In this document: positions 5,484-19,253 of the stretch, piece after piece
Layout: the number at the start of each line of letters is the position of its first letter
How positions within the stretch are numbered: the stretch's first letter is position 1
Assembly: GCA_027307325.1 (NCBI GenBank)
Contig: DAHUXE010000147.1
Span: 1-57,355 of the forward strand
Direction of reading: 5' to 3'
DNA from: Gammaproteobacteria bacterium
GTDB taxonomy: Bacteria > Pseudomonadota > Gammaproteobacteria > Steroidobacterales > Steroidobacteraceae
DNA: 57,355 nt
Made by a program: the position numbers and the translations under genes
The notes under the pieces: model-generated
Told to the model about the DNA's origin: nothing
Database searches by the model: none
Seen by the model: only the letters and a program-made list of their open reading frames with translations

Positions 5484-7559
5484 CTACCCTGCATCGCCGC
5501 CGAGGGCCTCCTGCAGCGGCCCGAGGTGGCGCTCATAGCGGCGCCACCGCCCGATCGAGCCCTTGCCGATGGGCTGGCGCACCTGCCAATTGCTCGCGGT
5601 CAGCACCGCTCGCTCGGTGCGGTAGAACTCGAGACAGCGCGGGTCCCACGGCAAGCCGATATGCGCGAGCATCCGGCGACTCCAGTGCTCGGGGTCGTCG
5701 ACCAGGGCCTCGTAGGGGACCTCGAGCAAGACTTGTGCTGGCAGCGTCGCGCGCCAATGCGCCATCAGGCGGCGGTACTCGAGGTAGTAGTGCGCCAGGT
5801 CGCCGAGATCGCTCGCGTAGGCATGCGCGGCCGTGAACCCCTGGAAGTAGATCGAAAGGCAGGTGTCGAGCGGGTGGCGCTCGAGGTGGATGAAGCGCGC
5901 GCCGGGCAGTGCCGCATGGATCAGCCCGAGGTTCCTGAAATTGCTCGGCAGTTTGTCGATGACGCGCGCTGCCGTCGCCGGAAGCGTTTCGAGCAGCGCC
6001 ACATACTCGCGGCCGAGCGAGGCAATCGTCGCCGCACGCTGCTCAGGCTGCGCGGCCAGCTCGGCGTCGGCCGCGAACTGCCAGAAGAGCACCTCGCCCG
6101 CTCCGTGGACCTGGCGGTGCGAGGCGAGTATCTGCTCGGCGAGCGTAGTGCCCGAGCGTGGCATTCCGAAGACGAAGACGGGGCGCCCGCAAGGGACTCC
6201 GGCTGGCCGCAGATCCTCGAGCGCGCGCCGGTCGAATACAGCGAGCGTGCGCGTCACCCGCGCGGTCGTGGCCGCGCGGTCGTAGGGCGGCCGGCTGCGA
6301 CGGGCGAGCTCATGGCCGCGACGGTGGTGCTCGAATGCCCCATCGTCCTCGCCGAGCTCATCGCAGTACTTGCCGAGCGCGTGGTGAAGACCGATGGCGT
6401 GCGCGACCGGCGGGCCCCGCGCCAGGGCGCGCTCGGCGGCCTCCCGCCAGGGCGCATCGGCGGCGGTCATCTTGCGCACTGCCGTAAGGCCAATCAGTGC
6501 CTCCGGCAGGTCGGGGCTCATTGCCAGCGCCTTCCTGAGCAGCGCCTCCGCCTCGTCGAACCGGCCCCGGTCGAGCGCGAGACTGCCGAGCAGCGTGACC
6601 GCGTCGGCAGCGTCGGGCCTGATGGCGAGCGCCCGGCGGACGCTCGCCGCGGCATCATAGACCCGGCCGAGCGCCCGCTCGGCCATCGCGTGTGCGGTAT
6701 GGAGCGGCGCATGGTCCGGTGCGGCTTCGAGCCCGGCGCGGTAGGCCGCCTCGGCCGCGTGCATCTCGTTGATCGCGAGCAGCGCGTTGCCGAGATGCAG
6801 ATACGCTTCCGGCAGCCCGGCATCGAGCTCGATGGCGCGCCGCGAATGATCGATGGCGGCGCCGTGATCGCCGCGGCAGTGGAGCACGTAGCCGAGGTTG
6901 GCGTGCAGCCGTGCGTCCAATGGTGCGCGGGCCAGCGCCTCGCGAAAGCAGCCGGCCGCCGCCTCGAAGCGCCCGAGGCCGGTGAGCAGCGTGCCCAGGT
7001 CGTTGAGCGTTTCCGGGCGGCGGTCGTGCGCGAGCAGCCGCTGGTAGTAAGGGAGCGCCTCCAGGGTGCGGCCGCGAACAGCCAGCGCGCGCGCGAGCTG
7101 CGTGACCGCGGCCGCCAAATGCGGCCGCAGCTCCAGCGCACGCCGCAGCGCCTCGATTCCGGCATCGGTCTCGCCGCTCTCGATGAGCGCACTGCCGAGA
7201 TTGTGGTGGGCCTCGGCCAGAGCGGGCTCGAGCGCAATGACCCGGCGGTACCCCTCGATTGCCGGCGCGAGCGCGCCGCGTGCGCGGTCGGCGTTGGCGA
7301 GGTTGCCGAGCGCCGCCACGAAGCCCGGACGGAGCTCGAGCGCGCGACGGCAGCTGGCGATCGCGGCGTCGACGCGCCCGAGCGCCAGCAGCAGGCGTCC
7401 GAGATCGTTGTGCGCGTCGGCGAAGCCGGGGTGCAGCGCCGTCGCCCGGGCCAGGACTTCGGCCGCCCGCTCGAGCTGCCCCTGCTCCTCGAGCGCCTGC
7501 GCGCGCAGGTAGTGCGCCTCGGCGTCGTCCGGAGGGCGGGAATCATTGGCGGGGGACAT
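5484..7559 (-). CDS. TPR-repeat sulfotransferase (ST1)
   Basis: This 691-aa protein has about ten TPR units over residues 10-350 (for example AEAHHNLGSALIESGETDAG) and a C-terminal sulfotransferase domain from about 440. The PAPS-binding loop is FGMPRSGTTLAEQILASH, and the second nucleotide motif is FIHLERHPLDTCLSIYFQ. The end, ASNWQVRQPIGKGSIGRW, is shared with ST2. It should transfer sulfate from PAPS to an unknown acceptor, with the TPR part binding a partner. The RSGTTL loop resembles tyrosylprotein sulfotransferases. I chose ATG over a TTG 9 nt upstream; neither has a good Shine-Dalgarno. A terminator ends only 7 nt before this ATG. Confidence 0.85.
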   Translation of the reverse strand: MSPANDSRPPDDAEAHYLRAQALEEQGQLERAAEVLARATALHPGFADAHNDLGRLLLALGRVDAAIASCRRALELRPGFVAALGNLANADRARGALAPAIEGYRRVIALEPALAEAHHNLGSALIESGETDAGIEALRRALELRPHLAAAVTQLARALAVRGRTLEALPYYQRLLAHDRRPETLNDLGTLLTGLGRFEAAAGCFREALARAPLDARLHANLGYVLHCRGDHGAAIDHSRRAIELDAGLPEAYLHLGNALLAINEMHAAEAAYRAGLEAAPDHAPLHTAHAMAERALGRVYDAAASVRRALAIRPDAADAVTLLGSLALDRGRFDEAEALLRKALAMSPDLPEALIGLTAVRKMTAADAPWREAAERALARGPPVAHAIGLHHALGKYCDELGEDDGAFEHHRRGHELARRSRPPYDRAATTARVTRTLAVFDRRALEDLRPAGVPCGRPVFVFGMPRSGTTLAEQILASHRQVHGAGEVLFWQFAADAELAAQPEQRAATIASLGREYVALLETLPATAARVIDKLPSNFRNLGLIHAALPGARFIHLERHPLDTCLSIYFQGFTAAHAYASDLGDLAHYYLEYRRLMAHWRATLPAQVLLEVPYEALVDDPEHWSRRMLAHIGLPWDPRCLEFYRTERAVLTASNWQVRQPIGKGSIGRWRRYERHLGPLQEALGGDAG

Positions 7560-7566
7560 GGACCCC

Positions 7567-7597
7567 AAAAAAGAAGGCGGGCATGGCGCCCGCCTTC
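7567..7597 (-). terminator. Intrinsic terminator after TonB receptor 1
   Basis: On the minus strand a 10-bp perfect stem (GAAGGCGGGC paired with GCCCGCCTTC, 5-nt loop) is followed by six U. It lies 26 nt after the receptor stop and 7 nt before the ATG of ST1, so it should limit read-through into that gene. Confidence 0.88.
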
Positions 7598-7622
7598 GAG
7601 TCTAACGCAACCGCCGCAAGGC

Positions 7623-10346
7623 TCAGAACTTCATGCCGATCGTCACGCCGAGCACCCGCGGCCGCAGGGGCACCTGAGCCTCGATGAACTGCCCGGACGA
7701 GGTGAATTGACTCGCACTCGAGTTGCCGAGGTTCTCGCCGTATATCTCGACGCTCCAGCGGTCCTTGCTGATGCCGGCCTGGGCGTCGTAGACGGTGTAC
7801 GCCGGCTGGTTGTACAGCAGCCACGTCGTGGTCGGGACGGTGCCGGGCACGCCGGGGGTGAAGCTGCTCGGCTCGTTGTTCATGTCGCCCGTATGGCTCG
7901 CGCCGACCGTGAAGAACATCCTGTAGTCGTTCGCCTCCCAGTCATAGCGTGCGTGCAGGTTGTACTGGATCGTCGGCGAGAAGGCCGGCGTGGCACCTAC
8001 GGCGCCGAGCGGATTGAGCAGCGGGACGTTCATATGCAGAGTCGAGCTCCACACCTGCGTTATGCAGCTGCCGGCCGGCGTGGGGTTGCCGGTGATTCCG
8101 CTCGCAGCGCCCGCTCCACCCACCGATTGGATGCAGGGTGAGTTCGTCTCGGACGCGTTGTTGTGAGAGAGCGCGCCCTGCAGCGTCAGCCCCTCGGTGG
8201 CCCGCCACACGACCTGCAGCTCGACGCCCTTGATCCGGTAATCCGGACCCTGCACGCCGAAGGTCGTGTTGCCGTACACCGGCGGGTTGTAGATCAGCGT
8301 CTGCACGTCCTTCCAGTCCATGACGTAAGCCGAGCCGTTCACCAGCAGCCGGTGGTTGAGCCACTCGGTTTTCCAGCCGATCTCGTTGTTGGTCAGCGTG
8401 TCGGGCGGGTAGGTGTAGGGCTTACGGAACTGCTTGACGAGCGTCGGGCTCGGATCGACACCGACGACCGGGACTCCCCCTTTGGCGTCGATCTCGACCT
8501 CGGCGCTGTTCTTGCGGTTACCGGCACCGGGGCGGAAGCCCTGCGAGAAGGTGTAGTAAGCCATCACATCGGGCGTGATGTGCCAGGTGAGGTTGCCGCG
8601 GCTCTTGAAGCCACTGTAGTCCGCCGCGTGCGTCGCTGCCGTCAGGTTGGAGCCGACGCAGGTGCCGTTCGGAATACCCGCGCAGCCGGTGCTGGTCGAG
8701 TACTGCGTGCCGTGCATGAACTCGGTGTACTTGTAGTAGCGGGTCCCGCCGGTCAGCGTCAGTACCTTCGGAATCAGGTCGAAGTCGATGGACGTGAAGA
8801 GCGCCCACTGCCGGTAGCCGCGCGCGAGGTCCTCACCGAACGCCGTATTGTCGTCGCGCGCCGTGGGATCGACGACCGCCGTGCCGGGAGGCGGGATGAC
8901 ATTGCCGACGCAGACCTGGCTGCCGGCCTGAAACAGCAACAGGTTGGCCGGCGTGCAGGACGGAATCGACTTGTAGCGGAAGTTCATGTCGTCCTTGATT
9001 TCCAGGTCCTCCCAGAACGCGCCGAACAGCCCGCGCACCCGCCCATCGTCCGGCGTGCTGAAGCGCAGCTCGTGGCTCTGGTGGGTTGTCTGGACGTAAT
9101 CGTTCCAGGACAGCACCGGCGAGTAGCAGGTGAGCGGGCCGACCCCCGCGCCGATCACGCCGGTACCGGCCCGGCCGCCGGCGCAGGTGTAGTAGAACCC
9201 GCCCCCTGAGCGCGAGTAGTTCGAGTAATCGACGCTGTTGTCGATGGTGCGCGACAGGTAGGCGCCGGTGTACACCGCCCTGATGTCACCGATCTTGCCG
9301 TTCAGCGTCCACGCGGTGTTCTCCCACTTGTCCTTGTACCACTGCGGCACGAAGGAGGTTTCCTGCCAGGCGCCGAGCGGCTGGCCATCGCTGCCGATCG
9401 GGTACTGCTGGAACGAGCCGTCGGCCTCCATGTTCTGGTAGGTCTGCGCGATCAGCAGGCTCCAGTCCGGATCGATTTGCCACAGCGCCTGCACGCGCAG
9501 GCCGTTGTAGCTGACAGGGTTCTGCGCGTTCTGTGCGAGGTTGAAGTTGTTCGCGACCGCCACGTTCGCCGGGTAGGTGAGCCCGAAGGAAGCGGGCCCC
9601 GGGTCCGTCGAGGTCGGCGAGCGCGTAAACGTACTCGGCACGTTGTCGATGTAGCCGCCGCGGTGGTCCGTATAGACGACCGCGCGGACCGCGAGCGTAT
9701 CCGCGAGGACCGGGACGTTGATCACCGCAATCGCCGAGGAGTTGGGATCGCCGTGGGCCGTCGTGCCGTAGGAGGCCAAGATATTGCCCTCGGTCACGTT
9801 CAGTTTCGGCTTGTTGGTGATGTAACGCACCGCGCCGGCCTCGGCGCCGCCGCCGAACAGAGTGCCCTGCGGGCCTTCGAGGACCTCGACGCGCTCGAGA
9901 TCCGCCATGTAGACGTCGACGTTACGCGCCGGGAAAGTCATCGACTGGTCGTCGAGGTAGAGCTCCACGTTCGGAAACGGGTTGATGGCCGCAGTCGACT
10001 GGTTGCCGGCGAAGCCCGCGCTCAGGCCGCGCATGTACATGTTGCCCTGGCCCGGGCCATTCGGGCTGAAGGTCACGTTCGGCAGGTATTTGAGGACGTC
10101 ATCGAAGGTCTGAACCTGCATCTGCGCGAGCTGCGCGCCGGTTATTGCCTGGATGGTGATCGGGACGTTCTGCACCGTCTCGGTGCGGCGCTCGGCGGTC
10201 ACGACCACTTCCGTGAGCCCGCCCGCCTCGGCGGTTGACGTCGCCTGGTCCGCCGGCGCCGTCAGATCCGATGGCGCCGCCAGCACGAACGCGGGCGCAC
10301 TCAGGACGGCGGCCACGGCCGCCGAGATCTTAGGATTCAGCTTCAT
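7623..10346 (-). CDS. TonB-dependent outer-membrane receptor 1
   Basis: The 907-aa protein has a signal peptide (MKLNPKISAAVAAVLSAPAFVLA), a TonB-box-like segment LTEVVVTAERR, a plug domain (VPITIQAITGAQL, then VEVLEGPQGTLFGGGAEAGAVRYI) and a beta-barrel ending in Phe (GVTIGMKF), the outer-membrane targeting residue. It should import a ligand across the outer membrane using TonB energy. There is no SusD-like partner. Two Cys flank a loop near 790-820 (NSPCIQSVGG and PAGSCITQVW) that is also present in the paralogue. The ATG chosen has GGGGAG 7 nt upstream and starts the signal peptide; an earlier in-frame start would add a non-conserved leader. Confidence 0.9.
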   Translation of the reverse strand: MKLNPKISAAVAAVLSAPAFVLAAPSDLTAPADQATSTAEAGGLTEVVVTAERRTETVQNVPITIQAITGAQLAQMQVQTFDDVLKYLPNVTFSPNGPGQGNMYMRGLSAGFAGNQSTAAINPFPNVELYLDDQSMTFPARNVDVYMADLERVEVLEGPQGTLFGGGAEAGAVRYITNKPKLNVTEGNILASYGTTAHGDPNSSAIAVINVPVLADTLAVRAVVYTDHRGGYIDNVPSTFTRSPTSTDPGPASFGLTYPANVAVANNFNLAQNAQNPVSYNGLRVQALWQIDPDWSLLIAQTYQNMEADGSFQQYPIGSDGQPLGAWQETSFVPQWYKDKWENTAWTLNGKIGDIRAVYTGAYLSRTIDNSVDYSNYSRSGGGFYYTCAGGRAGTGVIGAGVGPLTCYSPVLSWNDYVQTTHQSHELRFSTPDDGRVRGLFGAFWEDLEIKDDMNFRYKSIPSCTPANLLLFQAGSQVCVGNVIPPPGTAVVDPTARDDNTAFGEDLARGYRQWALFTSIDFDLIPKVLTLTGGTRYYKYTEFMHGTQYSTSTGCAGIPNGTCVGSNLTAATHAADYSGFKSRGNLTWHITPDVMAYYTFSQGFRPGAGNRKNSAEVEIDAKGGVPVVGVDPSPTLVKQFRKPYTYPPDTLTNNEIGWKTEWLNHRLLVNGSAYVMDWKDVQTLIYNPPVYGNTTFGVQGPDYRIKGVELQVVWRATEGLTLQGALSHNNASETNSPCIQSVGGAGAASGITGNPTPAGSCITQVWSSTLHMNVPLLNPLGAVGATPAFSPTIQYNLHARYDWEANDYRMFFTVGASHTGDMNNEPSSFTPGVPGTVPTTTWLLYNQPAYTVYDAQAGISKDRWSVEIYGENLGNSSASQFTSSGQFIEAQVPLRPRVLGVTIGMKF

Positions 10347-10426
10347 TGCGTTGCTCCCCGGGGATCCAGTTGTGTATTCCCCACACGCGTTTGCAGCCAC
10401 CCTCCCGGGTGGTTCTTATGGTGACG

Positions 10427-10456
10427 TTTATACCATTCGCTCGACAGGCGCTAGAA
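10427..10456 (-). promoter_or_regulatory. Predicted promoter of TonB receptor 1
   Basis: On the minus strand TTCTAG and TATAAA are separated by 18 nt, and the sequence CGAATGGTATAAA containing the -10 box is identical to the one upstream of the paralogous receptor. The -10 box is about 80 nt from the start codon. Conservation of this block between otherwise diverged leaders is the main support. Confidence 0.5.
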
Positions 10457-10487
10457 CAAACCCGTCATCGCAGCGCCATCTGTCCCT

Positions 10488-10528
10488 AGCTTTCCACACC
10501 ATTGTGACAGTGAGGATACCGGAAATCG
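10488..10528. promoter_or_regulatory. Conserved upstream block shared by both receptor genes (copy 1)
   Basis: The block AGC-TTTC(C)ACACC, then GTGACA, then CC-GAAATCG recurs upstream of both receptor genes (see copy 2). It contains an imperfect inverted repeat CACA/TGTG. It may bind a common regulator; no regulator is identified. Confidence 0.35.
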
Positions 10529-10629
10529 CGCGCGGCGCCCGAACTGAGAAGCGTTATAGCCTACTGAGCGCTTGAACTCGGCGATGGAATTGTTGCGCGC
10601 CGGCATCGGTGCATGGACGGCCCCGAGCG

Positions 10630-12471
10630 TCACGTCAGATTCACCAGGTGCGCAATGGGCCGAAGGTGTTTCTCATAGTTGCGCCAGCGCCCGGCCGACG
10701 CGCCGTTGATCTTCTGACGCACCTGCCAGCGGCTCGCCGTGATGACGACGCGCTCGGTATTCTGAAAGTCGAGGCACCCCGGATCCCACGGCAGACCGAC
10801 GAACTCGAGCATCCGCCGTGTCCAGCTCTCCTGATCGCCGATCAGCGCCTCATACGGGACCTCGAGCAGCGCCGTCGGGGGAAGCACCGTACGCCAGTGC
10901 CTCATCACGCGGAGGTACTGCGTGTAGTAATGCGCCAGACCCTCCAGATCGTTCGCGTACGAGCCCATCCTGAAGAAATTCTGGGAGTAGATCAACAGGC
11001 AGGTGTCGAGCGGATGGCGCTGCATGTGGATGATGCGCGCTCGCGGCAGCGCCGCGTGGATCAAGCCGGCGTAGAGAAAATTGGCGGGCATCTTGTCGAT
11101 GATGCGCGAGGCGCTGCCAGACAGGGCCCGCATCCGCTCGAGGTAGTCCCGGGCGAACTGCGGCAGGACTTCGGCGGCGCTCACGCCCGCTGCCATTTCC
11201 GCCTCGAAGATGCCGAAGGCGCCCTCCCAGAACCGCAATTCTCCTCCGCCAAACACCCCGGGATGTGAGGCGAGAATCTGCTCGGCGAGCGAAGTGCCGG
11301 ATCGCGGCATGCCGATGATCAGGACGGGCAGCTCCGCGGGCGAGCCTGCGGCGCGTCGCTCGCCCAGGAACCTCGCATCAAAGGTGCCGATAATCCGCTC
11401 GACACGCTGCTCGAATCTATCCCGGTTGTACTGCGCCTTGTGACGCCGCGCGAGCTCGTTCGCACGCCGGTAACTTGCGAACGCCTCATCGTAGCGGCCG
11501 AGGTCGTCGAAGTACTTGCCGAGCGCAAACCGCAGATCGATCTCGTGTCCGTGCGGCAGCGGCTTCGACAGCAGCTCTTCGACCTGCTGCTGCCAGAAGC
11601 CGTCGGCGCCGGTCATTCTCCGGCTGCCTGCCAGGCTGCTGTACACGGACGGCAAAGCCGGATTGATGGCGAGCGCACGCTCCAGCTGCTCCCGCCCTTC
11701 ATCGAACTGTCCGCGGTCGGCGTACAGCTCGCCGAGGAGCGACAGCCCCTCGACATTGTCGGGCTCGAGCGCGAGTGCAGCGCGGCAGATCTCTTCCGCC
11801 TCCGCAGCGCGTCCTCGCATGCGCATCGTCCCGGCCAGGCCGAGAAGAGCCCGCCGGTCATCCGCATGCAGCGCCAGGGCGGCGCGGAAAGCCGCGGCAG
11901 CTTCATCCAGCCGCCGCAGATCGAAGAGCACGCTGCCGAGGTTATTGTGGTGCTCGGCGCGCTGCGGCTCGAGCTCGACGGCCCTGCGACGCACCACGAG
12001 CGCCTCCTCGCCCTCGCCGAGCTCACGGAGCACGTCGCCGAGATGGCTCAGTCCCTCGATGCTGGCGGGATTCAACGCCAGTGCCCGCCGGTAGCTCGTC
12101 ACGGCCTCGGCGCGCGCGCCGGCAGTGGCCAGCGCAACGCCGAGGTTCAGATGCGTCTCGGCATCGTGCGGCAGGAGCTCGACCGCCCGGCGCAATGCCG
12201 GCACCGCGTCCCTCCCCTGCCGCAGCAACGCCACACTCAGGATCTTCCACAGCATGCCGTCCTGCGGATGGGCTCCGAGCAGCACACGGCAGCGTTGCTC
12301 GACTTCGGCGAGAGCCCCGGCGTGCAGTTTCGTTACGAGTTCGGTCAGCTCGTGTTCGTGTGCGGGGGCGGCCGCCAGCTTACCGTCCGGCACCCCATGG
12401 CAGTGCTTGTACTTCCTGCCGCTGCCGCACGGGCACGGGTCGTTGCGACCCGGTTTGATGGTCGTGTTCAC
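10630..12471 (-). CDS. SEC-C/TPR-repeat sulfotransferase (ST2)
   Basis: The 613-aa protein starts at a GTG that overlaps the ST3 stop (GTGA). Residues 7-25 form a SEC-C zinc motif, GRNDPCPCGSGRKYKHCHG, as found at the tails of SecA and other proteins. About nine TPRs follow (roughly 40-340), then a sulfotransferase domain with PAPS loop IGMPRSGTSLAEQILASH and second motif IIHMQRHPLDTCLLIYSQ. The C-terminal WQVRQKINGASAGRW matches ST1. A longer in-frame upstream extension lies inside ST3 and was rejected. The zinc motif ahead of TPRs suggests a protein partner or protein substrate; that is inference. Confidence 0.82.
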   Translation of the reverse strand: MNTTIKPGRNDPCPCGSGRKYKHCHGVPDGKLAAAPAHEHELTELVTKLHAGALAEVEQRCRVLLGAHPQDGMLWKILSVALLRQGRDAVPALRRAVELLPHDAETHLNLGVALATAGARAEAVTSYRRALALNPASIEGLSHLGDVLRELGEGEEALVVRRRAVELEPQRAEHHNNLGSVLFDLRRLDEAAAAFRAALALHADDRRALLGLAGTMRMRGRAAEAEEICRAALALEPDNVEGLSLLGELYADRGQFDEGREQLERALAINPALPSVYSSLAGSRRMTGADGFWQQQVEELLSKPLPHGHEIDLRFALGKYFDDLGRYDEAFASYRRANELARRHKAQYNRDRFEQRVERIIGTFDARFLGERRAAGSPAELPVLIIGMPRSGTSLAEQILASHPGVFGGGELRFWEGAFGIFEAEMAAGVSAAEVLPQFARDYLERMRALSGSASRIIDKMPANFLYAGLIHAALPRARIIHMQRHPLDTCLLIYSQNFFRMGSYANDLEGLAHYYTQYLRVMRHWRTVLPPTALLEVPYEALIGDQESWTRRMLEFVGLPWDPGCLDFQNTERVVITASRWQVRQKINGASAGRWRNYEKHLRPIAHLVNLT

Positions 12472-14483
12472 TGCTCCCGATAGCGCGTCAGCGCATCGCC
12501 CAGCGCATCCTTCAGCGGCCCGAGCCACGGCTCGAAGTGCTTCCACTGATCGAGACCCTCCCGATAGATGGCCTGGCGCACCTGCTCCGAGCTCGCCGTG
12601 CGCACGCTGCGCTGCGTCTCGTGAAAGACCAGGCATTGGGGCTCGAACGGCAACCCGCAGAAGTCCAGCATGCGGCGCACATTCCCTTCGAGATCTCCGA
12701 CCACGTCCTCGTGGTACACGCGCAGGATGCGCCCTGGCAGGACGCGATCCCAGTGCTGCATCAGCTCGAGATAGGTGCGGTAATAGCGCGCGATCTCCTC
12801 CGTGCCGTAGGTGAACTCCTGGCCGTTGGCGAACAGCTGCTTGAGGTTACTGAAGCAGCACGCCATCGGCTCGCGGCGCGCGTCGATGATGCGCGCGTTG
12901 GGCAGCATGAGGTGAACGAGCCCGAGGTGGCGGAAGTTGTTCGGATTCTTGTCGATGAAAAACGGCTTGCCGGTGCGGTACACGCGCGTATCGGCGAGGT
13001 ACTTCGCGCCGAGCTGCCGGAAATCCTCCGCACTCAGGCGCTCGAGGATATGCGGATAGCGGGGCTCCGCCTGCTCGGCCTCGCGGCCACGCAGGGCGGT
13101 CACGATCTGCTGCACGTGAGGCAGCTCCTGAGTGCCCTCGACCTGCGAGTGCGACGCGAGGATCTGCTCGAGCAGGGTCGAGCCCGAGCGCGGCAGCCCC
13201 ACGATGAAGATGGGATCGGGCTCGGGCGTGCCCCAGCCGTCGCGGCTGGCAAAAAACCCCGCGGTGCAGACCTTGATCTGCCCCCGGGTGTTGCTCTCGG
13301 TGAGGGCGGGCCGGTAGCGGATTTCGGCATGCTTCAGGCGATTGCCGAGCTCGTAGTAGCGAAAGGATTCGGCGTACTCGCCCCGGTCCTCGAGCGCCTT
13401 GGCGAGCGCAAAGCACAGGTGATAGCGATCGACCGTGCCGGTGGCCGGCGCCTCGAGCGCCGCGCGCATCTGTCGCAGCTCCTCGTCCGGGAAGCGGTAG
13501 GTCTTGAGATTGGCGAGACTCCAGTAGGCATCGCCGAAATCCGGCCGCAGGCTCGCCGCTTTGCGGTAGGCGACGATCGCCTCCGGCGTCTGTCCAAGAG
13601 TCTTGAGCGCATGGGCCATCGACAGGTGCACGTCGGCGTCGGCGGCAGTACCGAGCAGCAAGCCGCGGTAGATTTCGATCGCCCGCCGGTGCTCGCCGAG
13701 GCCGACCAGAGCGGCGGCATCGAGCATGCGCAACGCGCGGTTACCGGGCTCGTCCTTGAGAAGCTCGCCGATGTGGCGCCGCGCGTCCGCATGGCGATGC
13801 AGCTCGATGAGCACGCTGGCGTATTCCTGGCGCGCAGCGCGATAGTCCGGCGCCCGCTCGAGAACCGCCGCCAGCAGCAGCTCCGGATCGTCGTAGACCT
13901 TGCGCGCGATGCCGATGCGGGCGAGGAGGCGCATCGCTTCGATGTGATCGCCATTCTTCAGCAGCCACGCCCGGATCAGCGGCTCGGCGGCATCCAGGTC
14001 GCCGTCCATGAAGAGGCTCGTGGCAGCGACGATCTCCGGCGGGAGGTTCCTGAGCGTCGCCACGTGGCTGCCCGCCATGGCGGCGTTCTCCGCTTCCCCG
14101 GTCATGCGGTAGAGCCCTTCGAGCATGCTCCAGCTGCCGGGCAGGGCGTGATTGAGGTTCACGGCCGTGAGAAACGCCTCGATCGCCTGCGGCGCCTGCC
14201 GCAGGACGACGAAGCAGCGGCCGCGCTCCTCATAAAGGCGACTGAAGCGCGGATGCTGCTGCTCGAGCGTGGCCAGCGTGTTGAGTGCCTCGGAAATCCG
14301 ATGGAGCCTGCGCTCGGCCACGGCGGCGAACAGCCGCGCATCCCGATGGTGGGGTTGAGCCGCGAGCAGACCCTCCGCCGCCGCGAGCGCAGCAGAAAAA
14401 TTCTGCTCCTTCAGCAGCGCATGAACTCGCGCCAATTCGGCGGGGGCCGCGGCTGCAGCCGGTCGGGCGTCGCTTGGGTCCAT
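12468..14483 (-). CDS. TPR-repeat sulfotransferase (ST3)
   Basis: The 671-aa protein has an N-terminal TPR solenoid (about 20-360) and a C-terminal sulfotransferase domain. The PAPS loop is VGLPRSGSTLLEQILASH and the second motif is RIIDARREPMACCFSNLKQ. The latter has REP rather than the RHP of ST1 and ST2, so this copy is the most diverged. The tail ASSEQVRQAIYREGLDQW still aligns with the other two. The ATG lacks a visible Shine-Dalgarno and sits just after the terminator of TonB receptor 2. Translation of ST2 is probably coupled through the GTGA overlap. Confidence 0.83.
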   Translation of the reverse strand: MDPSDARPAAAAAPAELARVHALLKEQNFSAALAAAEGLLAAQPHHRDARLFAAVAERRLHRISEALNTLATLEQQHPRFSRLYEERGRCFVVLRQAPQAIEAFLTAVNLNHALPGSWSMLEGLYRMTGEAENAAMAGSHVATLRNLPPEIVAATSLFMDGDLDAAEPLIRAWLLKNGDHIEAMRLLARIGIARKVYDDPELLLAAVLERAPDYRAARQEYASVLIELHRHADARRHIGELLKDEPGNRALRMLDAAALVGLGEHRRAIEIYRGLLLGTAADADVHLSMAHALKTLGQTPEAIVAYRKAASLRPDFGDAYWSLANLKTYRFPDEELRQMRAALEAPATGTVDRYHLCFALAKALEDRGEYAESFRYYELGNRLKHAEIRYRPALTESNTRGQIKVCTAGFFASRDGWGTPEPDPIFIVGLPRSGSTLLEQILASHSQVEGTQELPHVQQIVTALRGREAEQAEPRYPHILERLSAEDFRQLGAKYLADTRVYRTGKPFFIDKNPNNFRHLGLVHLMLPNARIIDARREPMACCFSNLKQLFANGQEFTYGTEEIARYYRTYLELMQHWDRVLPGRILRVYHEDVVGDLEGNVRRMLDFCGLPFEPQCLVFHETQRSVRTASSEQVRQAIYREGLDQWKHFEPWLGPLKDALGDALTRYREQ

Positions 14484-14491
14484 CAGGGCTC

Positions 14492-14523
14492 GAAAGAAAA
14501 AGGGCGGACCGAAGGTCCGCCCT
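14492..14523 (-). terminator. Intrinsic terminator after TonB receptor 2
   Basis: On the minus strand AGGGCGGACC pairs perfectly with GGTCCGCCCT around a UUC loop (CUUCGG when closed), followed by UUUUCUUUC. It lies 48 nt after the receptor stop and about 9 nt before the ST3 ATG, the same arrangement as for receptor 1. Confidence 0.9.
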
Positions 14524-14570
14524 GCATTGTACCCAACCGGCCGCTTAGCGGCCGGAAGCGCCCGCCGCCC

Positions 14571-17345
14571 TCAGAACCTGTAGGACATCAGCAGGTTCAG
14601 CGTGCGCGGCCGCAGCGGGACCTCGGCCTTGATGAATTGGCCGGAGGTCACGTTCGTCGGCCCGAATTCATTCGACAGATTGGCGCCATTGAGCTGCACG
14701 GTCCAGTTGTCCTTGCTGACGCCGATGGCGGCGTCATAGGTCGTGTAGCTCGGGATGTCATACAGCAGCAGCGTCGTGACCGGGGGGTTCGCAAACGCCG
14801 GATCGTTGCCGGAATGGTAGTTCCGCGGCTCGTTGGTCATCGGACCGACATGACTCGCGCCGGCCCACATGAAGGGGTGGTAGCCCGCCCCCGTTGCCCA
14901 GTCGTAGCGCGCGCGCAGATTGAACATGAACGGCGGGGAGAACGCGGGCGCCGTGCCCTGCGCGCCGAGCGCGTTCGGGATGACGTTGCCCTTGTCCAGC
15001 GTGATGCACTGTCCGACCGGGGTGGGATTGTTGGCGGTCTTGGCGTTATTCGGATCCACGCCCACCGACTCGAGACACGGCGAGTTCGTCTGCGTCGACT
15101 GGTTGACCGAGGCCGATCCCTGGAGACTGAGCCCCTCGGTGAGGCGCGCATTGAACTGCAGCTCGAAGCCCTTGATGGTGAAGTTCGGTCCCTGGACGTT
15201 GAACGTCGTATTGCCGAAGAACGCCGGCTCGAACAGCGACAGCTGCTCGTCGTTCCACTTCATGTAGTACGCCGAGGCGTCGATCAGCAGGCGGTGCTCG
15301 AAGAACTCGCTCTTGAAGCCGATCTCGTTGTTGATGAGGTTGTCGGAGTTGACGCCCGCCGGTTTCTCGTACTGGTTCGTGGTCTTGCAGCTCGCCCCGC
15401 TGGCGGTCGTGCCCACGCAGGCCGGAATCTCGGACGCCAGGAACACCTTGCCGTTGGCGGAATTGGTGCGATTGAAGCTGCCGGGCCGGAATCCCTGCGA
15501 GAAGGTGTAGTAGGTCATGATGTCCGGCGTGATGTGCCAGGTCAGGTTCAGGCGCCAGCGCGAGCCCTGCTCGCTCTTGTCGAGGTTGATGGGAAAGCCG
15601 CAGTACCCCGGCGTGTTGACGCACGCGCCGTTGATGTGGTCGAGAATCAGGCCGGTTCCCGGGGCGATGCCCTTCGCCGACGCTCCCGAGGTGCTCTCGC
15701 TGTACCACTCCGAGCCGTGCTCGAACTCGTCGTAATGGTAGAGACGCCCGCCGGCCGTGGCCGTCAGCACCTTCGGAATCAGGTCGAAATCGACCGACGC
15801 GAAGAACGCGCGCTGCTTGTAGCCACGCTGATCGTCCTCGCCGAAGGCGTTGTTCATGTTGGTACGCAGGCTCGGATCGCTCGCAAACGTGCCTGGAACC
15901 GGGCCAACCGCCGAGAAACAGTCCGGTCCCGTCCCCGCGAGACCCGCCGCGGCCTGCGCCGCCGTGTTGCACTGAGGGATTCCCAGGTAGTTGAAGTTCA
16001 TCTGGTCGTCGATGACGAACTTCTCCCAGTAGAACCCCGCGAGCCCGCGCAGGCGCTGCTCCGGATCGGTGCTGACGCGCAGCTCGTGACTCTGGTGCGA
16101 GTTGTGGACGATGTCGCGCCACGCGCCGACGGGCGGATAGCACTGCAGCTTGTGGGTCGCCAGGGCGGGGAAGTTACTGGCGTTGAAGTATCCGGCTCCC
16201 GGACCGACGCAGCCGTAATACGAGCCCGTCGTGCTGCGCATGTAGTTCGAGTAGTCCTGCTGCCCGTCGATGTTGCGCGACATGTAGCTGCCGGTGTAGA
16301 CGAGGCTCATGTTGCCCGGCAGCTTGCCGTTCAGCGTCCAGGCCGTGCTCTCGTATTTGTCCTTGTTCCAGGCCGGCGTGAAAGCGGTGATCTGGTAGGG
16401 CGCGAGCGCCGTGCCGTTCGAGTTGGCCGGATAGGAGTAGAAATAGCCCGGGGCGTTCAGATTCTGGTAGTTCTGCTGCACCAGCAGATTCCAGTCGTCA
16501 TTCATCTTCCAGAGCATCGACAGCCGCAAGCCCTGGTAGTCGACCGAGTTGGTATTGTTCTCGAGCAGACTCGCGTTGTTGCCCGAGACCCCCGTCGAGG
16601 CGGCGACCGAGCCCGGCTGGTAGGAAATGGTCGAGGCCACGTTCGAGATGTAGCCGCCCTGATGCTCGGTGAAGATCACCGCGCGCAGCCCCAGGGTGCC
16701 TTCGATGAGCGGCAGGTTGAGCACCGCGTTCAGCTTGCTGTTCGGATCGCCGCCCGCGGTCACGCCGTAGCCGGCATTGAATTCGGCCGAGGTCGAGTTC
16801 AGGTTCGGCTTGTTCGTGATGTAACGGACGACGCCCGCCTGGGCGCCACCGCCGAACAGGGTGCCCTGTGGACCCTCGAGCACCTCGATGCGCTCCATGT
16901 CGACCACGTAGACGTCGTTGTTGCGCGCCGGGAATGTCATCGACTGGTCATCGAGGTAGAGCGCGACGTTCGGGAACGCGGCGGTGGTCGACTGCGACTG
17001 GTTGCCGGAGCCGATGCCGCCGAGGCCGCGGATGAAGATGTTGCCGGTGCCGGGTCCGTTACCGCTGAAGGTCACGTTCGGCGTGTACTTCATCAGGTCG
17101 TTGAAGGAGGTCACGTTCAGCTGCGTCAGCTGCTCGCCCGTGATCGCCTGCACGGTGATCGGTACGTCCTGCAGTCGCTCGTTGCGGCGCTGCGCCGTGA
17201 CGACTACCTCGGCCAGCCCTATGTTCTCGGTCGTTGCTGTCGACTGGTCTGCGGCTGCGGTCAGGTCGGACGGCGCCGCCAGTACGAACGCCGGCGCACC
17301 CAGGACTGCCGCCACGGCCGCAGAAATCTTCGGATTGACCTTCAT
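14571..17345 (-). CDS. TonB-dependent outer-membrane receptor 2
   Basis: The 924-aa protein is a paralogue of receptor 1. The signal peptides are nearly identical (MKVNPKISAAVAAVLGAPAFVLA), and it has the TonB-box-like LAEVVVTAQRR, plug motifs VPITVQAITGEQL and IEVLEGPQGTLFGGGAQAG, and a barrel ending in Phe (LLMSYRF). The paired-Cys loop is kept (NSPCLESVGV and PVGQCITLDKG). Ligand is unknown. The ATG has GGGGGAG about 7 nt upstream. An in-frame start 39 nt earlier has no conserved sequence and was not used. Confidence 0.9.
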   Translation of the reverse strand: MKVNPKISAAVAAVLGAPAFVLAAPSDLTAAADQSTATTENIGLAEVVVTAQRRNERLQDVPITVQAITGEQLTQLNVTSFNDLMKYTPNVTFSGNGPGTGNIFIRGLGGIGSGNQSQSTTAAFPNVALYLDDQSMTFPARNNDVYVVDMERIEVLEGPQGTLFGGGAQAGVVRYITNKPNLNSTSAEFNAGYGVTAGGDPNSKLNAVLNLPLIEGTLGLRAVIFTEHQGGYISNVASTISYQPGSVAASTGVSGNNASLLENNTNSVDYQGLRLSMLWKMNDDWNLLVQQNYQNLNAPGYFYSYPANSNGTALAPYQITAFTPAWNKDKYESTAWTLNGKLPGNMSLVYTGSYMSRNIDGQQDYSNYMRSTTGSYYGCVGPGAGYFNASNFPALATHKLQCYPPVGAWRDIVHNSHQSHELRVSTDPEQRLRGLAGFYWEKFVIDDQMNFNYLGIPQCNTAAQAAAGLAGTGPDCFSAVGPVPGTFASDPSLRTNMNNAFGEDDQRGYKQRAFFASVDFDLIPKVLTATAGGRLYHYDEFEHGSEWYSESTSGASAKGIAPGTGLILDHINGACVNTPGYCGFPINLDKSEQGSRWRLNLTWHITPDIMTYYTFSQGFRPGSFNRTNSANGKVFLASEIPACVGTTASGASCKTTNQYEKPAGVNSDNLINNEIGFKSEFFEHRLLIDASAYYMKWNDEQLSLFEPAFFGNTTFNVQGPNFTIKGFELQFNARLTEGLSLQGSASVNQSTQTNSPCLESVGVDPNNAKTANNPTPVGQCITLDKGNVIPNALGAQGTAPAFSPPFMFNLRARYDWATGAGYHPFMWAGASHVGPMTNEPRNYHSGNDPAFANPPVTTLLLYDIPSYTTYDAAIGVSKDNWTVQLNGANLSNEFGPTNVTSGQFIKAEVPLRPRTLNLLMSYRF

Positions 17346-17426
17346 CGCCTTGCTCCCCCGAGAGTCTGGTTGGTTATTCCCCACGCGAACGCCGGTGCGC
17401 CATTCCAGGCGACTGCCCAGATGAGA

Positions 17427-17457
17427 TTTATACCATTCGTCCCCCGCGGCGCTTGAA
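17427..17457 (-). promoter_or_regulatory. Predicted promoter of TonB receptor 2
   Basis: On the minus strand TTCAAG and TATAAA are separated by 19 nt, and the -10 context CGAATGGTATAAA is identical to that of receptor 1 and at a similar distance from the start codon. Confidence 0.5.
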
Positions 17458-17541
17458 TAAACGCGCCATCAGGCATGATCCGCGCGCTGTCCGTGTCTGC
17501 CCCCAAAGGTACGCCGCAAGGGCCGCCGCCTTGGAATCTCC

Positions 17542-17583
17542 AGCCTTTCACACCTGCGTGACACTAATAAAGACCAGAAATCG
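17542..17583. promoter_or_regulatory. Conserved upstream block shared by both receptor genes (copy 2)
   Basis: This is the counterpart of the block upstream of receptor 1: AGCCTTTCACACC, GTGACA, GACCAGAAATCG. It lies about 55 nt further from the -10 box than copy 1, so it may be an activator or unrelated conserved DNA. Confidence 0.35.
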
Positions 17584-17741
17584 GATAGCAGTATCTCAAA
17601 AGTCTATTGAGGCGCCGTGGTAGCGGCAATCGGAGGTCAGCCGGAGCAGTGGCTAGGCACGGAACGGGGTCGCCGGAATCAGCTGTTGCGTCAAGGCATC
17701 AGCTGGGCTGGCGCAAGCTCGCGTGCCGATCCTGCGGGACA

Positions 17742-19253
17742 ATGGCACCCATGCCCAAGCCCTTCCATGTCCTCGCGATCGACCAGGGTACGACCTCCAC
17801 GCGCGCCATCGTCTTCGACGCGCAGGCGCGCGCCGTGGCGCTGGCCCGGCGGGAGCATCGACAGCACTTCCCCGCGCCCGCCTGGGTCGAGCACGACCCG
17901 GAGGACATCTGGCGCGATACGCTCGCGGTCGTCGGCGAGGCGCTCGGCCGCTGCGGCGGGAGCGAGGCGATCGCCGCGCTCGGCATCACCAATCAGCGCG
18001 AGACCACCGTGGTGTGGGAGCGCACGGGCGGGCGGCCCGTTCACCGCGCGATCGTGTGGCAGGACCGCCGTACGACGGAGGAATGTGCCCGGCTCAAAGC
18101 TGCGGGCGCCGAGGCGCTGGTGCGCGCACGCACAGGGCTGCTCCTCGACCCGTACTTCTCGGCCACCAAAGTCGCGTGGATTCTCGATCGGGTGCCGGGC
18201 GCGCGGCAGCGTGCCGAGCGCGGCGAGCTCGCCTTCGGCACCATCGACACGTATCTCCTCTGGCGCCTGACGGGCGGGCGGGTGCACGCCACCGACGTCA
18301 CCAACGCCTCGCGGACGCTGCTCTTCGACATTCACCGGCAATGCTGGGACGAGGAGCTGCTCGGGCTGCTGCGCGTGCCGCGCGCGCTGCTGCCGGAGGT
18401 GCGCGACAGCAGCACGCTCTACGGTGCGACGGAGACCGCGCTCTTCGGCCGCGCGCTGCCGATCTGCGGAATCGCCGGCGACCAGCAGGCGGCGCTCGTC
18501 GGGCAAGCCTGCTTCGCGCCCGGCATGGCGAAGTCCACCTACGGCACGGGCTGTTTCCTGCTCCTCAATACCGGAGACACCGCGGTCGACTCCGCCAACC
18601 GCATGCTCACCACCGCGGCGTACCGCATCGGCGGACGCATGACCTACGCGATGGAAGGCTCGATCTTCGCCGCTGGCGCGGCGGTCAAGTGGCTGCGGGA
18701 CGGGCTCAAGGTGATCGACAGCGCCGCCGCGACCGCGGAGCTCGCCGCGCGTGTCCCCGACGACCATGGCGTCTACCTGGTTCCCGCCTTCGTGGGCCTC
18801 GGAGCCCCGTACTGGCAGCCCAATGCGCGCGGCGTCATCTGCGGATTGACGCTCGATGCCTCGCCGGCCCACCTGGCGCGCGCCGCGCTCGAGTCGGTAG
18901 CCTTCCAGACGCTCGACCTTACGAGCGCCATGGCGCGCGATGGTGCGCGCCGCGCCGAGGCGATCCGCGTCGACGGGGGCATGGCCGCCAACGACTGGTT
19001 CTGCCAGTTTCTCGCCGACATTCTCGACGCGCGGGTCGAGCGTCCGGCGGAGCTCGAGACCACGGCGCTCGGCGCCGCGTTCCTCGCCGGGCTCGCGGCC
19101 GGGGTCTGGAAAGATCTCGAGTCGCTCGCGGCCACCTGGCACCGGGCGGCGGAATTTTCCCCGTCGATGCCCGCCGCCCGCCGCGCAGGCTTGATCGCCG
19201 GCTGGCGGCAGGCGATCGAACGGACGCTGCTGGCCGCCGCGGTGCCTCGGTGA
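17742..19253 (+). CDS. glpK: Glycerol kinase
   Basis: The 503-aa FGGY-family kinase should phosphorylate glycerol to sn-glycerol 3-phosphate. It begins with the phosphate-binding loop [17 protein letters not shown], keeps [10 protein letters not shown] and ITNQRET, and has the C-terminal signatures [21 protein letters not shown] and [15 protein letters not shown]. Length matches E. coli GlpK (502). An ATG 9 nt downstream (MPKPFHV) is an equally good start because neither has a strong ribosome site. No glpF or glpD is adjacent; the genes downstream point to a broader polyol or sugar pathway, so another polyol substrate is possible. Confidence 0.88.

Follow-up and report, generated by a model that had tools for sequence, protein, structure and literature searches.

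The window analysed here is a 57,355-nt stretch that makes up a single contig (DAHUXE010000147.1, handled as C41) of a Gammaproteobacteria bacterium of the Steroidobacteraceae (assembly GCA_027307325.1; genome of 2.98 Mb, 97.9% complete). Its minus strand carries a block of two TonB-dependent receptors (receptors A and B) and three sulfotransferases fronted by tetratricopeptide repeats (TPRs), designated ST1, ST2 and ST3. In Gamma- and Alphaproteobacteria, the adjacency of such a receptor and such an enzyme was found to be conserved to a degree that greatly exceeds chance, and the two almost certainly constitute a true functional module. The full model favoured here, to which a probability of about 0.4 is given, is that the enzyme would be a cytoplasmic protein-tyrosine sulfotransferase that modifies its neighbour receptor before export.

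Conservation of the receptor-sulfotransferase pair

In the genome of the window, 10 matches to Sulfotransfer_3 and 27 to the receptor Plug domain (26 over the cut-off) were found. Seven of the ten sulfotransferases directly adjoined a same-strand receptor (three on C41 and one each on C112, C85, C133 and C31), with a binomial chance of ~1e-12 when ~2800 genes are assumed. The other three (C54, C174 and C131) showed no same-strand receptor as direct neighbour, C54 and C131 lying at contig ends with one side unseen. Scanning named genomes with ST3 provided 78 loci from other genomes, hence chosen by ST3 similarity, in which 73 of the 94 sulfotransferases of at least 400 aa presented a same-strand receptor directly upstream; 14 followed another sulfotransferase, 3 stood at a contig end and 4 did neither (no sulfotransferase was called in L100 and L103). 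The pair occurred in two gene orders, receptor then enzyme as in the window (order A) and enzyme then receptor (order B).

Because these 78 loci had been selected by similarity to ST3, a less selective sample was taken from seven relatives, whose sulfotransferases were counted by size class. Same-strand receptor neighbours were observed for 18 of the 35 sulfotransferases of at least 560 aa (2 had an opposite-strand receptor, 3 lay beside another sulfotransferase and 12 had none), for 3/16 in the class of 440-560 aa, and for 0/13 in the shorter class. Sixty regions were taken, covering 16/20 of the sulfotransferases among the matches listed for G001, 13/13 for G002, 10/10 for G018, 10/12 for G006, 8/9 for G003, 4/7 for G016, 1/1 for G013 and 5/5 for G019, a choice in which well-assembled genomes were favoured; some regions overlapped the 78 loci on the same contigs (e.g. 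L036 and L109), three G016 loci were excluded from the adjacency counts, and L107 (stop codon) and L058 were omitted from one comparison. A receptor-first search across 114 genomes of the class revealed such receptors in 3 genomes (E 1e-60 or better), each of which also had sulfotransferases, and 5 of the 6 matches outside the genome of the window adjoined a sulfotransferase by coordinates among the matches listed (G037:C36 may have one). The question raised in the first-pass annotation, whether adjacency in other genomes exceeds chance, was answered in the affirmative by the 78 loci and the genome of the window, with which the receptor-first search agreed.

The catalytic domain and its sulfate donor

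The catalytic domains of the window enzymes matched tyrosylprotein sulfotransferases (TPSTs) best, with the catalytic residues mostly kept. When tested, the catalytic domain had the TPST fold, and its structure resembled those of protein-tyrosine sulfotransferases more closely than those of the two polyketide-type enzymes listed. For ST3, the best 50 Foldseek matches were TPR-type proteins and included no sulfotransferase, the TPST matches coming from a second look. Glu453, which aligns with the catalytic glutamate of TPST2 (Glu99), was kept in 151 of 156 sulfotransferases, including all three window enzymes. In the same 156 proteins, the residues of the predicted site for the donor 3′-phosphoadenosine 5′-phosphosulfate (PAPS) were found in 154 (Arg432), 156 (Arg537) and 126 (Ser545) cases, and the arginine of the 5′ site together with the Arg/Ser pair of the 3′ site was complete in ST1 and ST3. 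Sulfotransferases lacking PAPS binding, which had been named at the outset as speaking against the functional pair, are not what these alignments suggest, since the PAPS-site residues were kept in most members.

Regarding donor supply, adenosine 5′-phosphosulfate (APS) kinase gave a strong match (E 1e-59 or better) in 17 of 21 genomes, a fragment in G009, weak matches in G000 and G008 and none in G017, which also had no sulfotransferase among the matches listed; G004 (65% complete) had an APS kinase and no sulfotransferase among the matches listed. A one-strand run in G013 (L164, 3610-9759) comprised a receptor cut by the contig end, an ST3-type enzyme, a cysD-like gene and a cysNC gene with an APS-kinase domain, a configuration in which PAPS synthesis adjoins the probable consumer of PAPS. 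In the genome of the window, a CysH on C123 (L174) displayed the cysteines CC...CxxC...CGLH, presumably of the APS-reductase type, and because of these, sulfate assimilation in this organism may bypass PAPS.

A tyrosine signature in predicted receptor loop 4

The AlphaFold model of receptor A (predicted local distance difference test score, pLDDT, 84.3) had only TonB-dependent receptors among the best 50 PDB matches listed, FyuA (4epa) being the first, with template-modelling (TM) scores by target of 0.64-0.85. In this model, a tyrosine- and cysteine-bearing signature lay between strands 346-364 and 408-425, which border the predicted fourth extracellular loop counting from the plug. Among 68 aligned paired receptors, Y365, Y368, Y377, C379 and C402 were identical in 68/68 and position 364 was D or E in all, giving the shared pattern [DE]-Y-x-x-Y ... 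Y-x-C ... C; many further positions were as strongly conserved within this subfamily. Two type-B receptors of the genome of the window, at 29-31% identity, retained the acidic-Tyr-x-x-Tyr element.

When counted on the alignment, acidic-Tyr-x-x-Tyr was present in 25 of 31 same-strand receptors adjacent to a sulfotransferase, against 4 of 22 non-adjacent receptors and 1 of 5 opposite-strand ones. The first figure combines 11/15 type-A and 12/14 type-B receptors with the two window receptors, which were added by hand; the rows L176, L177, L179, L181 and L183 came from the class-wide search, with adjacency labelled by coordinates instead of gene calls, and L161 (G016), one of the 22 non-adjacent receptors, bears the signature. 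With the strict pattern [DE]Y.[ND]Y, the difference was less marked (20/31 vs 4/22, P 0.0017), these 31 including 5 opposite-strand neighbours. At the level of aligned sequences, the loop signature is suggestive of the receptor being the substrate of the enzyme. A different arrangement was noticed in L117 and L150, in which shorter sulfotransferases (476-490 aa) were convergent with receptors of 831-851 aa devoid of the loop signature; L159 presented a pair similar to this type with one gene between.

Genes travelling with the pair

The neighbours of the pair in the 78 loci, which include groups of related strains (Dyella, Rhodanobacter), were clustered, and one representative per cluster was checked against profiles. 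The families recovered were PhnX, PhnM, PhnA, PhnW, the TIGR03364 oxidoreductase, PhnG, PhnH, PhnI, PhnJ and a phosphonate-binding protein, besides a Phn-HD protein at 211.1 bits for a cut-off of 214.6. At least one phosphonate-catabolism gene was found in 38/78 loci, and 51/78 were reached when the choline ATP-binding cassette (ABC) transporter and sarcosine oxidase were included. Among 81 comparison loci (mostly of 14 kb, some with the pair), the phosphonate profiles matched only L147, itself a pair locus, and the choline or sarcosine profiles matched 10. Linkage of the pair to phosphonate genes is strong among the loci selected with ST3 but not general, and it is absent in the window.

The catabolic partners varied from locus to locus (carbon-phosphorus lyase genes, PhnX, PhnA, sarcosine oxidase, choline ABC transporter) and the receptor and the enzyme stayed together. 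Because of this, and because the catalytic domain is closest to protein-tyrosine sulfotransferases, the substrate would be the receptor or another exported protein. The first-pass annotation had proposed instead a cytoplasmic sulfation enzyme acting on the ligand, a peptide or a surface molecule. Cytoplasmic sulfation of the small ligand after its import, or of an intermediate of catabolism, fits the frequent linkage of the pair to small-molecule catabolism genes. However, the catabolic chemistry changes beside a constant enzyme, the fold leans away from the polyketide-type enzymes, and a long TPR front would be typical of protein-binding enzymes such as the O-GlcNAc transferase (OGT), so that this explanation appears improbable. 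The notion of a functional importer-enzyme pair stood, the pair being conserved and its PAPS residues kept in most members, and ligand sulfation as its purpose became the less favoured part. It was also considered that the enzyme might sulfate a surface glycan or lipid, such as lipopolysaccharide or capsule, near the receptor and in this way alter the access of ligands or the sensitivity to phages. Saccharides are the acceptors of many bacterial sulfotransferases, and the partner receptor sits at the surface; yet no glycan-synthesis genes were recognised among the neighbour clusters listed, part of which were searched against families, and such a role seems very improbable.

Other genes were recurrently observed near the pair. 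A DUF5690 protein, a candidate phosphonate transporter, was present in 18/78 loci (e.g. L061:5519-6835), 15 of which had phosphonate genes, and an aromatic amino acid lyase-like protein of 594 aa (L075:5970-7754) lay near the pair in 8 loci. In the genome of the window, a same-strand run on C31 (L014, 7294-14960) comprised a receptor, a TPR sulfotransferase, a TPR-Asp/Asn-hydroxylase and a second hydroxylase-like gene, two kinds of candidate protein-modifying enzymes here accompanying one receptor.

Organization of the block in the window

Gene calling and Pfam searches placed the block genes on the minus strand in the transcription order receptor A, ST3, ST2, receptor B, ST1, and their starts were refined relative to the coordinates first given (Table 1). 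All five genes announced in the first-pass annotation were present on one strand with no further gene called within 5484-17345, and its statement that a sulfotransferase directly follows each receptor was borne out, ST3 lying directly 3′ of receptor A and ST1 of receptor B. Both receptors are assigned to the TonB-dependent receptors by their Plug and beta-barrel domains, with ligand import predicted. ST2 carries a SEC-C motif near its N terminus, and its gene overlaps the end of the ST3 gene by 4 nt.

Table 1. Features of the receptor-sulfotransferase block, with positions in the window.
Feature	Position	Strand	Evidence and remarks
Receptor A, TonB-dependent receptor, 924 aa	17345-14571	-	Pfam Plug 3.8e-19, TonB_dep_Rec barrel 3.9e-26
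Receptor A residues 364-402, D-Y-S-N-Y ... Y-Y-x-C ... C, predicted extracellular loop 4	16140..16256	-	alignment and model
TACAAT box just before the junction hairpin of receptor A/ST3	14526..14531	-	sequence
Hairpin and T tract, receptor A-ST3 junction	14501..14523	-	terminator-like site; RNA fold z -3.78 for the gap
ST3, TPR sulfotransferase, 671 aa, receptor-following type	14483-12468	-	Sulfotransfer_3 2.8e-53 and TPRs (Pfam)
ST2, SEC-C, TPR and sulfotransferase, 613 aa, GTG start	12471-10630	-	SEC-C 3.4e-10, Sulfotransfer_3 2.2e-40
Gap before receptor B, sharing GAATGGTATAAA with 17346-17750 upstream of receptor A	10347..10629	-	by eye
Receptor B, TonB-dependent receptor, 907 aa	10346-7623	-	Plug 3.9e-17, barrel 1.3e-25
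Receptor B loop signature D-Y-S-N-Y ... Y-Y-T-C ... C, from residue 373	9126..9230	-	alignment
Hairpin and T tract, receptor B-ST1 junction, with TAGACT box at 7599-7604	7573..7597	-	terminator-like; RNA fold z -2.20 for the gap
ST1, TPR sulfotransferase, 691 aa	7559-5484	-	Sulfotransfer_3 8.5e-45 and TPRs; catalytic residues kept

On one side, the block is flanked by a polyamine/aminoethylphosphonate-type ABC transporter on the plus strand, with PhnT2 and PotA as the best models for its ATPase, both below the cut-off, and by a minus-strand glycerophosphodiesterase-like gene. The opposite flank carries, on the plus strand, a glycerol kinase, an aldehyde dehydrogenase, a galactonate-dehydratase-like protein, a choline-dehydrogenase-like GMC oxidoreductase and a major facilitator superfamily transporter. 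No type I secretion genes stood beside the window sulfotransferases, the flanks being represented by the Pot/Phn-type ABC transporter and the glycerol kinase, and no glycan-degrading enzymes were found in the block or in the subset of window genes scanned. Neither known RNA elements (at Rfam gathering scores) nor tRNAs (by ARAGORN) were detected in the window.

The duplication of the whole unit suggested in the first-pass annotation did not hold. Receptors A and B share 54% identity and ST1 and ST2 45%, with ST3 only 28% identical to each of them, and the nearest relatives disagree. Receptor B was closest to the receptor of L062 (distance 0.28) and ST1 to the second sulfotransferase of the same locus, whose order is receptor, ST3-type, ST1-type enzyme; for this reason, the window looks, as judged from sequence kinship, like two related units (receptor, ST3 type, ST1/2 type), the second of which would have lost its ST3-type gene. 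In the catalytic-domain tree, most A and B members fell in one clade of 112 (85 A, 10 B, 6 beside another enzyme, 2 opposite-strand, 8 with no such neighbour and 1 at a contig end), and ST1 and ST2 in a second clade of 18.

The junctions between receptor and enzyme displayed a recurrent element. A G+C-rich hairpin with a T tract was found in 43/70 receptor-to-enzyme gaps (30-260 nt) versus 4/179 other same-strand gaps, and the controls gave 1/106 for gaps of 50-160 nt and 1.3% for shuffles. A TA-type box preceded 29 of the 43 junction hairpins, and the loci scanned held 37 copies of the combination of box, hairpin and T tract, of which 31 lay at the receptor-to-sulfotransferase junction (the same contig stands behind two loci in a few cases). 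The hairpin is read as a putative partial terminator holding the enzyme level below that of the receptor; alternatively, it might serve in processing or, taken together with the box, represent a promoter bearing a 5′ hairpin. Transcription of the block as one simple operon is doubtful, given the terminator-like hairpins in both receptor-sulfotransferase gaps and the separate upstream gap of receptor B. The latter shows by eye a TATAAA-type box, also seen upstream of receptor A, and gave no site in a scan for the sigma-70 consensus; it is a possible promoter of its own.

The TPST-like fold could also serve another protein. The enzyme may modify a different exported protein or a small peptide, in the style of RaxST and RaxX, that the receptor, as its partner, imports, exports or senses, and RaxST, a bacterial tyrosine sulfotransferase, is described as acting on a small peptide (PMC6637879). 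However, the usual receptor-sulfotransferase gap is of about 90 nt and often occupied by the hairpin, and gene calling in the window placed no small gene next to the pair, which makes this explanation unlikely. The gaps of the window contain short open reading frames of 12 to about 68 aa, as read from the sequence.

Proposed mechanism and points against it

In the favoured model, which is the simplest one drawing on all of these observations, the block would hold, in two related copies, an uptake module in which a TonB-dependent receptor is co-inherited with a TPR-fronted protein-tyrosine-type sulfotransferase. The receptor would import scarce nutrients, probably often of the phosphonate or amine type, and the neighbour enzyme would use PAPS to sulfate the loop-4 tyrosines ([DE]-Y-x-x-Y) of the still unfolded receptor chain in the cytoplasm, with the TPR superhelix holding this chain as in OGT. 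The sulfated receptor would then be exported by Sec and folded, and its sulfotyrosines would contribute to the binding of ligands that are cationic or zwitterionic. The junction hairpin may keep the enzyme scarcer than its abundant substrate, and, by analogy with SecA, the SEC-C motif of ST2 could link the enzyme to protein export. Observed are the gene pair and its conserved adjacency, the linkage to phosphonate, choline or sarcosine genes that is frequent in one set of loci, the TPST-like fold and active-site residues, the loop signature and the junction hairpin. Sulfation itself, tyrosine as the acceptor, the receptor as the substrate, the cytoplasmic location, the ligand class, the SEC-C link and the role of the hairpin are what we infer. 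The wider proposition is held more tentatively than this model: that a widespread receptor family is tyrosine-sulfated in the cytoplasm before Sec export by a dedicated TPST-like enzyme, with the sulfotyrosines placed in a site for cationic or zwitterionic phosphonates or amines.

Several observations weigh against this reading. At the enzyme level, the second-best sequence match of ST3 was the CurM polyketide sulfotransferase, ST2 has Leu in place of the 3′-site Ser, and no APS kinase was found above the cut-off in the genome assembly of the window (best 20.1 bits). Co-occurrence alone proves little, since sulfotransferases were present in 58/114 genomes of the class among the matches listed. 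Concerning ligands, 15 order-A comparison loci, window included, had phosphonate genes in 1 (L147) and any phosphonate, choline or sarcosine match in 5, the other 66 giving 0 and 5, respectively. As for the loop, the type-A receptors have a single acidic residue next to the tyrosine, which is by rule a weak sulfation context. Six of the 31 adjacent same-strand receptors (C31, L136, L139, L145, L167 and L177) lack the aligned signature, the strict pattern being found elsewhere in the alignment of L139 and both tyrosines being kept without the acid in L177. The contrast of 25/31 vs 4/22 has a P of 1.3e-5, a value that ignores kinship and is only a guide because the motif had first been spotted in the paired set and was counted afterwards.

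Moreover, judging from the alignment, the signature also tracks receptor lineage: three of the four signature-bearing non-adjacent receptors (C27, C179 and L118) belong to the same subfamily without being paired. Such a pattern would suit a pair kept by shared regulation or joint transfer alone, in which the loop tyrosines stay unmodified and serve ligand binding or folding, and the correlation of receptor and enzyme distances, being confounded by species kinship, agrees with it as well. Yet the pair is kept in both gene orders, and in outside loci with two pairs the nearest relatives differ between pairs in 3 of 4 cases (L052, L066 and L093, not L108), so that maintenance by linkage alone is improbable. 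A slightly weaker phosphonate link and APS-kinase count leave the odds of the tyrosine-sulfation model unchanged, because at its core the model relies on the pairing, on the fold and on the loop signature.

Comparison with known systems

No description of the receptor-TPR-sulfotransferase pair was found in the open-access papers searched, judged mostly by title and abstract start; PMC10040529 lists both families in one table. The window enzymes are 18-20% identical to human TPST1/TPST2 and tick TPST, from which they differ in being fused to a long TPR array, in the apparent lack, on visual inspection, of a signal or membrane anchor at the N terminus of ST3, and in having a tyrosine activity that is predicted. 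With OGT they differ in catalytic domain and donor. According to PMC9372746, protein-tyrosine sulfotransferases are sparse in bacteria and known mainly from the RaxX peptide system. RaxST of Xanthomonas, likewise a bacterial TPST-like enzyme, is presented as cytoplasmic and acting before export (PMC6637879, PMC9372746), and provides the precedent for a tyrosine sulfotransferase working in the bacterial cytoplasm. In contrast, RaxST sits with the gene of a 60-residue peptide and a type I secretion system, whereas the window enzymes have a TonB receptor as partner and a TPR front.

In the carbohydrate-utilisation (CUT) loci of Xanthomonas, as in the pair loci, the receptor lies near inner-membrane transporters and catabolic genes. 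Unlike in the CUT loci, a sulfotransferase stands with the receptor here, joined in many loci by genes for phosphonates or amines, and the block itself has no glycan-degrading enzyme. The CUT loci are likewise TonB-receptor uptake loci (PMC1790865).

If the proposed reading is true, it would mean post-translational tuning of receptor specificity in bacteria and a new layer of control over outer-membrane passage. The conserved receptor-TPST pair would give many candidate sulfoproteins, and would open the passage of phosphonate and choline-type nutrients across the outer membrane to genetic study.
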